From positions 1 to 52,831 of IMG/VR virus record IMGVR_UViG_3300025668_000001: a stretch of DNA of 52,831 nucleotides; one strand, given 5' to 3'. Within the stretch, counting starts at the first letter, position 1; each line of letters begins with the position of its first letter. This DNA comes from a virus. The notes beneath the pieces are model-generated. The model saw only the letters and a program-made list of their open reading frames with translations, was not told the origin of the DNA and did not search any database. Of this stretch, positions 8,612 through 13,455 are shown piece by piece. A program made the position numbers and the translations under genes.

Positions 8612-8632
8612 CTAACTCATGGAGACTGACCA
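8612..8632 (+). repeat. Shared gene leader, copy 1
   Basis: CTAACTCATGGAGACTGACCA, a variant of the 19-base leader CTAACTTGGAGACTGACCA that precedes three other genes of this operon. The GGAG inside it is the ribosome binding site for the ATG at 8634. Confidence 0.8.
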
Positions 8633-9308: not shown

Positions 9309-9330
9309 CCGCCCTCCGGGGCGGTTTTTT
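9309..9330 (+). terminator. Rho-independent terminator
   Basis: CCGCCC, TCCG, GGGCGG perfect stem followed by six T. It closes the first two-gene unit (8634-9228), so the DUF932 gene needs another promoter. Confidence 0.85.
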
Positions 9331-9606: not shown

Positions 9607-9625
9607 CTAACTTGGAGACTGACCA
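9607..9625 (+). repeat. Shared gene leader, copy 2
   Basis: CTAACTTGGAGACTGACCA immediately before the ATG of the DUF932 gene; it carries the ribosome binding site. No hammerhead motif precedes this copy. Confidence 0.85.
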
Positions 9626-10612
9626 ATGAACACTTACACAAACCTTTCGCACCTCTCACCTGAAATCATTTCTCTTGCACAGCGTTTGCATGAGCGCCAA
9701 CAGGCCGAGCAGCCCAGCCCAGCAATGAAGCGCCTGTTTCCTGCTCTGGATAAAACCGGGTTCACCGCCGAGGCTGTCGAGCTATTCCATGAAATGAACG
9801 GCACAGAAAACAACTACGGCGAATTCGCCGGGGTTCCTGAGAACGTGGGCCGCCTGATCCGCCGCACCGATACCAACCAGCCTTTGGGTGTGGTGGGTGA
9901 ACGCTACGCAATCGCACAGAATGGTGATCTGGCCGCTAAACTGGCCGAGGGCTGCGAGGCTGCACTTCCTACCCGGGCGCTGCAAAACATCGAACTGCGG
10001 GAAAGCATCAGCCGCAACGGGCGGTTCAGCCGCTTCGAATATTCTTTTCCTGAACTGGGCGCAGACATCCGCCAGCTAACAGGCCGCAGCACTTCCCTCA
10101 AATTCCGGGTTGCGGTGGTCAATGGATTTTCAGGCACGAGTATCCGTGCGACGGCAGGCGCAATCGATTGGTATTGCGACAATGGCATGACGTTTGGAGA
10201 GTTCGAAACCTCTGTTTTCCGCCATACGTCCGGCTTTAACCCAAACAAGGTAAAGCAGTTTGTGACGCTCGAGGCCGAGCGGTTCAAAGAGCGTGTGAGC
10301 ATCTGGCAGCGTTGGGCCTTGAATGAGATCAACCCATCCGAGGCCGAGCTTTGCTTAGAGGAAGCCGGGATGGCTGGCCGCACAATCAAGCGTGTAATGG
10401 AGCAGCTAGACCTCGAGGCGCAAGAACGTGGAATGACAACGTGGGCCGTATATTCAGCGTTGACCTACCGCTCGAGCCACAACAGCGAACGGTTTGGCGT
10501 CCGCAATTCCAACAATATAGACAATGTGGCCGAGGTGTTGGATCGCCGTGAGCGTGAGGTGGGCCAGATCATAAGTCATCCGGCAATGGCACGGATCGGC
10601 ATGGCCGCCTAA
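9626..10612 (+). CDS. DUF932 protein (phage/plasmid-like)
   Basis: 328 aa. The sequence has DUF932 (TIGR03299-like) character: GVVGERYAIAQNGDLA near residue 92, RFSRFEYSFPEL, LKFRVAVVNGFSGTSIRATAGAIDWYCDNGMTF in the middle, and a helical C-terminal third with TYRSSHNSERFGVRNSNN. The family is common on plasmids and mobile elements of Proteobacteria; its molecular role is not established. G+C and codon use differ visibly from the phage's structural genes, suggesting transfer. It is followed at once by hammerhead ribozyme 1, whose first base pair begins two bases after the stop. Confidence 0.8.
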   Translation: MNTYTNLSHLSPEIISLAQRLHERQQAEQPSPAMKRLFPALDKTGFTAEAVELFHEMNGTENNYGEFAGVPENVGRLIRRTDTNQPLGVVGERYAIAQNGDLAAKLAEGCEAALPTRALQNIELRESISRNGRFSRFEYSFPELGADIRQLTGRSTSLKFRVAVVNGFSGTSIRATAGAIDWYCDNGMTFGEFETSVFRHTSGFNPNKVKQFVTLEAERFKERVSIWQRWALNEINPSEAELCLEEAGMAGRTIKRVMEQLDLEAQERGMTTWAVYSALTYRSSHNSERFGVRNSNNIDNVAEVLDRREREVGQIISHPAMARIGMAA

Positions 10613-10613
10613 A

Positions 10614-10686
10614 GTCGAAACGCCCGGTTCATCGCCGGGCGTCTGCCGGGAAGGCTCCACACAATGTGGCCCGGTACTGATGAGAC
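10614..10686 (+). ncRNA. Type II hammerhead ribozyme 1
   Basis: Complete self-cleaving fold. Helix II is GTC (10614-10616) with GAC (10684-10686), open-ended, hence type II. The core GAAA is at 10617-10620. Helix III is A+CGCCCGG with CCGGGCG+T (10620-10627/10635-10642). The cleavage nucleotide is C10643. Helix I is TGCCGGG with CCCGGTA (10644-10650/10670-10676), with a bulge AAGGCT and an inner stem CCACA/TGTGG. The core CTGATGA is at 10677-10683. All invariant positions match the hammerhead consensus. It lies between the DUF932 stop and the leader of the next gene and would cut the operon mRNA after 10643. Confidence 0.9.
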
Positions 10687-10693
10687 AAGCCCC

Positions 10694-10712
10694 CTAACTT
10701 GGAGACTGACCA
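10694..10712 (+). repeat. Shared gene leader, copy 3
   Basis: CTAACTTGGAGACTGACCA, 7 bases after hammerhead 1. Its GGAG serves the ATG at 10714. Confidence 0.85.
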
Positions 10713-10713
10713 A

Positions 10714-11259
10714 ATGAACACTCAAACCAAAATCACCCTGACAGGTTCAACACCCGCCGAGACTGTTTCCGGCCCTAAGTGGGTTGCCACTAAGACCCGC
10801 ACCGCTTGGGCGCATGGTGCTGTGATCGCAGAGAGCCGCCGACAGGGCCGCACCTTGCAGACGCTGGCTGAGGAGTATGGTGTGAGCATTGGCACAATTG
10901 ATCGGATCGCCGAGGCGCAGCCGCAGCCGCTGGCCCATGATCGGAGGGCATTGTTGAACGCCAAGACATTGCTGGACGCTGTACAGGCTGCCCGTGATGC
11001 CCGGAATGATATGGCCGCCCAGTTGCTCGAGGCGCAGCACGATTTGGCCAATGCGAAGCTGGGCGAGGCGTCCGCCATTGCACGGCTCAACGATCCGAGC
11101 GTGGCTAACAAGTGGAAGGCCGAGGCGCACCAAGAATATTTGCGCCGGGATGAGGCCGAGCGTGACCGGGCGGCAGCGGAGGCACAGATCGAAATGATGG
11201 CCGAGCGGCTGGCAGAATGTCGGGGCCGGGGTTTCTGGGCACGGGTATTCAATCGCTAA
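10714..11259 (+). CDS. HTH and coiled-coil protein (181 aa)
   Basis: An HTH near the N-terminus (GRTLQTLAEEYGVSIGTIDRI) of the homeodomain/resolvase type is followed by long Ala/Glu/Arg-rich heptads (EAQHDLANAKLGEAS... RDRAAAEAQIEMMAERLAE), a coiled coil. It is probably a DNA-binding, self-associating protein, possibly a regulator or partition-like factor (inference). The ATG at 10714 is chosen over an in-frame TTG at 10699, which lies in the shared leader. It is flanked on both sides by hammerhead ribozymes. Confidence 0.65.
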   Translation: MNTQTKITLTGSTPAETVSGPKWVATKTRTAWAHGAVIAESRRQGRTLQTLAEEYGVSIGTIDRIAEAQPQPLAHDRRALLNAKTLLDAVQAARDARNDMAAQLLEAQHDLANAKLGEASAIARLNDPSVANKWKAEAHQEYLRRDEAERDRAAAEAQIEMMAERLAECRGRGFWARVFNR

Positions 11260-11328
11260 GTCGAAACCGGGGCGCTGCCCCGGTCTGCGGGATAGGCTGC
11301 ACACAACGTGCTCCCGTACTGATGAGAC
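11260..11328 (+). ncRNA. Type II hammerhead ribozyme 2
   Basis: Same architecture as copy 1 with different helix sequences. Helix II is GTC (11260-11262) with GAC (11326-11328). GAAA is at 11263-11266. Helix III is A+CCGGGG with CCCCGG+T (11266-11272/11278-11284). The cleavage nucleotide is C11285. Helix I is TGCGGGA with TCCCGTA (11286-11292/11312-11318), bulge TAGGCT, inner stem GCAC/GTGC. CTGATGA is at 11319-11325. The compensatory changes in helices I and III against copy 1 preserve pairing. It begins on the base after the upstream stop codon. Confidence 0.9.
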
Positions 11329-11334
11329 AAGCCG

Positions 11335-11353
11335 CTAACTTGGAGACTGACCA
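11335..11353 (+). repeat. Shared gene leader, copy 4
   Basis: CTAACTTGGAGACTGACCA, 6 bases after hammerhead 2. Ribosome binding site for the ATG at 11356. Confidence 0.85.
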
Positions 11354-11355
11354 CA

Positions 11356-11691
11356 ATGAAACTTTTGACCAAAGCAAACCGCACGAAGCTCGAGGCAAAC
11401 GCCCGGAAGACTGAGATCGAAGGCGAAGACGATCACCGCCCGGTGGTTAAACTGTTTGACCCCTGCGGCGCTGCCACTTGGCTGTTGACCGAGATTGAGG
11501 GCGACATTGCCTTTGGCCTCTGTGATCTGGGCATGGGTTCGCCGGAGCTTGGCAGCGTATCGATCACCGAGCTTGAGGCCATCAAGGGGCCGCTGGGGAT
11601 CGGTATTGAGCGGGACCAATACTTTGAGGCTGAGATGACGATCTCAGAATATGCCGAGGCCGCCCGTGCCTCTGGCTCGATTGCAGCGTAA
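11356..11691 (+). CDS. DUF2958 protein
   Basis: 111 aa, matching the DUF2958 family over its length: MKLLTKANRTKLEANAR, then DHRPVVKLFDPCGAATWLLTE, IAFGLCDLGMGSPELGSVSITELE and IKGPLGIGIERDQYF. The family is typical of plasmids and integrative elements of Alphaproteobacteria, often close to DUF932 genes; the function is unknown. It is the third gene with the shared leader and HHR-type intergenic spacing, and the next genes follow closely without leaders. Confidence 0.8.
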   Translation: MKLLTKANRTKLEANARKTEIEGEDDHRPVVKLFDPCGAATWLLTEIEGDIAFGLCDLGMGSPELGSVSITELEAIKGPLGIGIERDQYFEAEMTISEYAEAARASGSIAA

Positions 11692-12674: not shown

Positions 12675-13455
12675 CTTATGCCTGAGAGCCACACAGAGCC
12701 ACGCACAGGGCCGTTAACAGTTACGGCATGAGGTGACACCTACCAGAGGGGCGACAAGGGCACTCAGACGGGCGCACAGAGGCTCTCAGAGATGGGCCGC
12801 CTGAGATGGCTGCACCGGGCGCAGGATCGGGACGCTGGCCGGGATCGATCACCCGGGCGATGTCGTGACGGGATGCAGCAAGGCGGACACCCGGGCGATG
12901 TCGTGACGGGATGCAGCAAGGCGGACACCCGGGCGGACACCCGGGCCAGAGGTGACGGGATATCGTACACCCGGCGGCCCCTCCCGCTTTCGCCTGTGAT
13001 ACGGCAACGGCTAGAGATCGGAGGCTATTTCCCCAGCCCACGAACAAACCACGGCAATCCGCCCGGGCTATATGGGGTAGGGGTCTCGCAATCCCGGGGC
13101 CGATACCTAAGAGGTAACAGGCCGAGGCCTCGAAACACTGGCCCGAGCCTCAAAGCCCAATGAAATAAGGGGCTTCCGGCCACGATCAAGCCGCTCAGAC
13201 CCCTGCCGCACCCCCCATGCGAGTGCCACCGGGGGGGTACCCGGTAGCGTATACCACTCTGACCAAATCTGGGGATTTTAGCACCGTAAATGACCCGGGT
13301 GCGGACCCGAGGAATTGGTTATGTCAAAGCACAAAGCGGTATTTCGGGGAAGATATCCGGTAAAGTGTCAATAACTCGGTTCTCTAAACGCTACTAGTAT
13401 GGGGAAATAGGGTAGGCTGACCGTCTGAGCCTTAGTTAGGGGTCAATATATGCAC
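12675..13455. other. Gene-free G+C-rich stretch
   Basis: About 780 bases without a convincing gene. Open frames here (for example 12792-13163) are Arg/Gly-rich, lack ribosome binding sites and run through the tandem repeat. Visible structure: tandem repeats at 12850-12948, a dyad around 13225-13250 (ACCGGG-6-CCCGGT), and several CCCGGG palindromes. G+C falls back towards the phage average after about 13300. It marks the end of the acquired segment and may hold a replication or recombination site. Confidence 0.5.
12850..12948. repeat. Tandem repeat, two 38-bp units plus two short partial units
   Basis: Two identical 38-bp units (12850-12887 and 12888-12925), each beginning CACCCGGGCGATGTCGTGAC, are followed by CACCCGGGCGGA (12926-12937) and CACCCGGGCCA (12938-12948). 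There are thus four in-line CACCCGGGC cores. Iteron-like layout; the units abut, so it is not a CRISPR. Confidence 0.9.

Follow-up and report, generated by a model that had tools for sequence, protein, structure and literature searches.

Judged by sequence, the two gaps that separate three co-directional genes of the window (the whole stretch of viral DNA analysed, 52,831 nucleotides, IMG/VR record IMGVR_UViG_3300025668_000001) are each occupied by a genuine and complete type II hammerhead ribozyme, here called A and B. We consider it highly probable that both are active and stabilised by a pseudoknot, and that they cut the co-transcribed DUF932-gene A-DUF2958 mRNA at C10643 and C11285 during transcription. 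The features on which this reading is built are as follows.

9626..10612, + strand: DUF932 gene, 328 aa, upstream of ribozyme A (Pfam PF06067, 35.3 bits; homologue of CRP-3 gp57, 94.8%)
10614..10691, + strand: type II hammerhead ribozyme A, in the gap between the DUF932 gene and gene A (RF02276 match at 10613-10695)
10614-10616 / 10684-10686, + strand: helix II of ribozyme A, GUC / GAC, read from the sequence
10617-10620 and 10677-10683, + strand: GAAA and CUGAUGA of ribozyme A
10620-10628 / 10634-10642, + strand: helix III of ribozyme A
10644-10650 / 10670-10676, + strand: helix I of ribozyme A
10643..10644, + strand: predicted cleavage site A, after C17 = C10643 (GUC^U), the GUC lying between helix III and helix I; expected from hammerhead chemistry
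10653..10656, + strand: loop I pseudoknot strand GGCU of ribozyme A, partner AGCC at 10688-10691 (covariation of the equivalent pseudoknot in 27 other phage ribozymes)
10695..10711, + strand: translation leader TAACTTGGAGACTGACC, containing GGAG, after ribozyme A
10714..11259, + strand: gene A, 181 aa, between ribozymes A and B (no family at E<=0.001)
11260..11333, + strand: type II hammerhead ribozyme B, in the gap between gene A and the DUF2958 gene (RF02276 match at 11259-11337)
11260-11262 / 11326-11328, + strand: helix II of ribozyme B, read from the sequence
11263-11266 and 11319-11325, + strand: GAAA and CUGAUGA of ribozyme B
11266-11273 / 11277-11284, + strand: helix III of ribozyme B
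11286-11292 / 11312-11318, + strand: helix I of ribozyme B
11285..11286, + strand: predicted cleavage site B, after C11285, with the GUC again between helix III and helix I and the same chemistry assumed
11295..11298, + strand: loop I pseudoknot strand GGCU of ribozyme B, partner AGCC at 11330-11333 (covariation of the equivalent pseudoknot in the same 27 ribozymes)
11336..11352, + strand: the same translation leader, after ribozyme B
11356..11691, + strand: DUF2958 gene downstream of ribozyme B (Pfam PF11171, 142 bits)

Both copies contain the core elements CUGAUGA and GAAA and an NUH cleavage triplet in the type II permutation, as seen by direct reading and in the models, with helices I and III closed by loops and helix II open, as seen in the sequence and in its alignment to the Rfam consensus. 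A preliminary description had put a pair of type II hammerheads between genes of a phage operon, and the core order, the coordinates and helices I to III that it gave are all as we read them directly in the sequence; the identification itself is backed by matches of both copies to RF02276 and to an independent model. The Rfam model, the check proposed there, divides the pair at its gathering score of 37 bits: A exceeds it with 38.8 bits, while B falls just below, at 35.1 bits (E 1e-4 over 3 kb searched). By the covariance model R1, which was built from 27 hammerheads of other phages with the window excluded, A scores 51.2 bits (E 8e-11) and B 47.0 bits (E 1e-9) in 572 kb searched. Searches with RF02276 and R1 found no third hammerhead in the window, and a structural descriptor of the core and stems gave 0 matches in the 3 Mb set after dinucleotide shuffling.

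Fold prediction recovers all three helices of A, and helices I and III alone of B. Helix II is just 3 bp long, and in the minimum-energy fold of B with its flanks AGUC pairs with GACU of the leader, so that helix II is left unformed. This, like the score of B below the Rfam gathering threshold, counts against the proposed cutting of the mRNA, although the GACU is not kept in CRP-3. The same pairing, between the 5' strand of helix II and the leader, might suggest a riboswitch-like switch; we rejected this idea because the leader also precedes genes without a ribozyme (at 9609 and 8616) and the GACU is absent from the CRP-3 leaders. Helices I and III are predicted to form strong, GC-rich hairpins, and one could therefore speculate that the hairpins alone matter, as mRNA-stabilising or terminator-like elements, and that the hammerhead core is a coincidence. 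We give this next to no credence, since the CUGAUGA...GAAA core, the cleavage triplet and the pseudoknot are kept where the stems change, and no T-run follows the hairpins.

The six-base bulge ending in GGCT that the preliminary description had noted is indeed there, but it more plausibly forms one side of a pseudoknot that had been missed: in both copies GGCU lies in the helix I bulge and AGCC in the tail downstream of helix II. Most type II hammerheads have been found to make such a contact between loop I and the tail (Perreault et al. 2011, PMC3088659). The pairs vary in relatives (GGGC/GCCC, GGCC/GGCC, GTGGC/GCCAC), and of 239 phage ribozymes among the matches listed, 82% can form four or more Watson-Crick pairs between loop I and tail, compared with 17% (largest 24%) in a control in which the tails were swapped between ribozymes. 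It had also been argued that covariation between A and B implies selection on RNA structure; two copies alone are statistically weak grounds for this, but the comparison across phages settles the point. In a gap-free alignment of 27 phage ribozymes from outside the window, 96.1% of the pair cells are paired and two-sided changes are seen in 16 of 20 pairs, a result that none of 500 shuffles equalled. Within the pseudoknot, 4 of the 5 pairs show two-sided changes, and whereas the helices of this alignment had served in selecting the sequences, the pseudoknot had not.

The terminase and portal of the window phage are 99.7-99.8% identical to those of Roseobacter phage CRP-3 (terminase 99.8%), and by this measure the phage is a close relative of that cultured, marine, HMO-2011-type roseophage, the type to which it had already been assigned. 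CRP-3 is described as an HMO-2011-type phage with host integration shown (HMO-2011/RCA phage genome papers). Both ribozymes are present in CRP-3 at the same junctions as in the window, CRP-212 has two type II hammerheads, and the metagenomic relatives G002-G005 have one to three each, all of them at junctions of one small gene set consisting of DUF932, gene A and DUF2958. Single genes are delimited by at least two same-strand ribozymes in the window, CRP-3, CRP-212 and G002-G004. When relatives were searched with R1, no type II hammerhead was found in HMO-2011, CRP-1, CRP-235 or CRP-738, and among the relatives searched the rhizobial phages phiM6 and RHph_N3_19 likewise gave none. The host of CRP-3 is FZCC0040, which is also that of the related CRP-212 and of the ribozyme-free CRP-235. 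Since CRP-235, CRP-738, HMO-2011 and CRP-1 manage without them, the ribozymes are dispensable, which again speaks against the cutting proposal. In the relative L123, the DUF932 protein is 86% identical, and gene A, DUF2958 and the ribozymes are all missing together.

The ribozymes have diverged far more than their surroundings. When the window is compared with CRP-3, identity is 87-91% in the flanks (87-89% in their coding parts; 75.8% when the stretch following A is aligned globally), and the leader region is almost unchanged, whereas the ribozyme stems share only 53-57% of their bases; even so, every helix can still form, as can the pseudoknot, and the core is intact. Because this contrast between stems and flanks is too sharp for gradual drift, it suggests that the ribozyme segments were replaced by recombination. 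Copies A and B of the window have a helix I block in common (51 nt, 84%) but no common helix III, and one helix I block (TGACCACCTTGGGCAAGGGTCA) is joined to different helix III halves in CRP-3, L132 and L124. The shared block within the window, the exchange of halves between CRP-3 and L124, the replacement of stems between closely related phages and the patchy presence among close relatives would all fit selfish or neutral passengers, that is, cassettes spreading between gene junctions by recombination with no benefit to the phage. We find this improbable in view of the strict orientation, the strict stop-to-start placement and the intact cores across gene A homologues that are only 32-57% identical between subclades, all of which point to selection. 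In G004 and G005 gene A precedes DUF932, the reverse of the window order, and wherever the contig covers the 3' end of either gene, a ribozyme is present there, its helix III resembling the one found with this gene in the window or CRP-3. As these gene-matched 3' ribozymes are kept despite the swapped order, the ribozyme seems, in this handful of sequences, to travel with its upstream gene. No remnant of a ribozyme was found upstream of the DUF932 gene in the window, where L124, G004 and G005 carry one.

Phage type II hammerheads typically begin right at the stop codon of the preceding gene. In the window, the TAA of the DUF932 gene (10610-10612) lies 1 nt before helix II of ribozyme A, and the TAA of gene A (11257-11259) abuts helix II of ribozyme B. 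Our survey set consisted of 239 non-redundant phage hammerheads among the matches listed, found mainly via two exact patterns that favour the helix II form NNC and of which neither includes the bases 5' of helix II; two of the 239 are from bacterial genome contigs, where the pattern scan gave 2 descriptor matches among 119 stretches and otherwise almost all chance. With stop codons counted for same-strand ORFs of at least 60 codons, 79% of the 239 listed start within -3 to +10 nt of the upstream stop (antisense 2.9%, random same-strand 4.3%) and 66% within -1 to +3 nt (antisense 0.8%, random 1.3%), and in at least 62 surveyed ribozymes the stop is a TAG that shares one base with helix II. With each locus counted once, the figure is 120 of 158 among the matches listed. 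The median distance from the stop is 1 nt for the ribozymes and 20 nt for terminator-like hairpins of these contigs, of which 1% fall within -1 to +3. On the other side, a start codon is found 12-40 nt past helix II in 180 of 239 among the matches listed, and no locus among these matches has ribozymes on both strands. A tie to one gene family is ruled out by the diverse flanking genes, which among the matches listed include anti-restriction ArdC, superinfection exclusion, DUF932, DUF2958, AAA ATPase, amidoligase and HNH. We did not meet the stop-codon rule in the openly licensed literature, and the main text of Perreault et al. is silent on stop codons (PMC3088659). The phage contigs L114, L073, L007 and L089 have at least five type II hammerheads per locus, on one strand and many of them delimiting single small genes, and up to ten occur in one locus among the matches listed.

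Because the stop codon abuts helix II, a terminating ribosome would cover the 5' strand of helix II and the GAAA, and it could in this way block folding and restrict cutting to gaps between ribosomes, an argument that rests on the ribosome footprint. Cleavage would in that case serve as a readout of upstream-gene translation, or take its timing from it. In its favour are the 66% of 239 listed with a stop within -1 to +3 of helix II, compared with 1% of terminator-like hairpins, and the apparent movement of the ribozyme with its upstream gene; compaction of phage gaps, or removal of a single-stranded 3' tail, would equally favour a flush stop. We regard such gating by translation as rather unlikely, and are equally doubtful that phage type II hammerheads in general serve the upstream gene as a 3'-end device coupled to its translation, set flush against its stop codon and kept with it through changes of gene order, in which the terminating ribosome times the cutting of the operon mRNA. 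The stop-codon rule nevertheless offers a specific, falsifiable hint of a link to translation of the upstream gene.

Under the preferred reading, the polycistronic mRNA would be cut at each junction during transcription. The upstream product would be left with a very short 3' end made up of the stop codon, the GAAA and the GC-rich helix III hairpin and ending in a 2',3'-cyclic phosphate, and the downstream product with a 5'-OH and a 70-nt leader that opens with the helix I hairpin and bears the gene's own ribosome-binding leader. The start codons of gene A and of the DUF2958 gene are each 70 nt past the predicted cut, and the piece carrying gene A between the two predicted cuts is 642 nt, so that gene A would be freed as a monocistronic RNA of this length with structured ends. 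Cleavage and its end chemistry are assumed here by analogy with established hammerhead chemistry. RNases that recognise a 5' phosphate or require an accessible 3' terminus would be expected to degrade such products more slowly. The gain would likely be that the stability and translation of each message are set apart from those of its neighbours, although we only infer this effect of cutting on message stability and expression; it would amount to a compact, naturally evolved scheme by which an operon is divided into messages of one gene each. The glmS ribozyme also sits in a bacterial mRNA leader and leaves a 5'-OH on the downstream mRNA, as is predicted here, but it is ligand-dependent, and the window ribozymes have another fold and no sign of a ligand. 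Pairs of ribozymes on the same strand moreover leave end chemistry used by RtcB-type ligases, and consecutive pairs enclosing exactly one ORF are common (67 of 119 among the matches listed). One could thus imagine that both ribozymes excise the gene A RNA and that a ligase then joins its 5'-OH to its 2',3'-cyclic phosphate, giving a circular mRNA. This seems to us very improbable: many surveyed loci carry a single ribozyme, the Pfam scan, which covered part of the ORFs, showed no RNA ligase among the window proteins, and circular or spliced products of tandem hammerheads have been sought and none found (Perreault et al., PMC3088659).

The novelty implied by the preliminary description was overstated. 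A 2011 paper already describes type II hammerheads on either side of single prophage genes, their cleavage in vitro and in vivo, and the pseudoknot (PMC3088659), and hundreds of such ribozymes are found in viral contigs among the matches listed; the window pair thus belongs to a known kind. It resembles the bacterial and prophage type II hammerheads (PMC3088659, RF02276) in its permutation, core, pseudoknot, short helix II and closed helices I and III, and in forming clusters that flank single genes in phage genomes. It differs in that helix I of the window copies has an extra inner stem beyond the pseudoknot strand, in the position of copy B just under the family cut-off, and in the host group, HMO-2011-type roseophages, not previously noted. 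The tandem prophage hammerheads were cleaved in vitro, and the A. tumefaciens triple also in E. coli (PMC3088659). As in that triple, which flanks ardA, successive hammerheads of the window separate single phage genes; unlike the triple, for which cleavage was shown, the window arrangement, where cleavage is predicted, involves DUF932, gene A and DUF2958 in another phage. Nothing closer than PMC3088659 was found in the openly licensed literature, and ribozymes go unmentioned in the main texts of the two HMO-2011/RCA phage genome papers; hammerheads in HMO-2011-type phages have apparently not been reported before. What is new here is their occurrence in a new, culturable phage group. The role of phage hammerheads has been a standing question since 2011, and it becomes directly testable because there is a cultured phage-host pair (CRP-3/FZCC0040), with ribozyme-free relatives as natural controls.

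The 16-nt leader AACTTGGAGACTGACC is found at 9609-9624, where there is no ribozyme, at 10696-10711 and 11337-11352, and with 3 mismatches at 8616-8631. This ribosome-binding leader precedes at least four window genes whether a ribozyme is present or not, and the repeat was therefore ruled out as a part of the ribozyme. The start ATGAACAC also recurs, at three of the four leader sites (8616, 9609, 10696, 11337). Just ahead of the stretch leading into the DUF932 operon, at 9309-9330 on the + strand, lies a GC hairpin with a run of six T behind it (CCGCCCTCCGGGGCGGTTTTTT), which CRP-3 has as well and which looks like a terminator closing the previous unit. Further downstream, 12850-12925 is an exact tandem duplication of a 38-nt unit (CACCCGGGCGATGTCGTGACGGGATGCAGCAAGGCGGA) inside a predicted ORF at 12792-13163.
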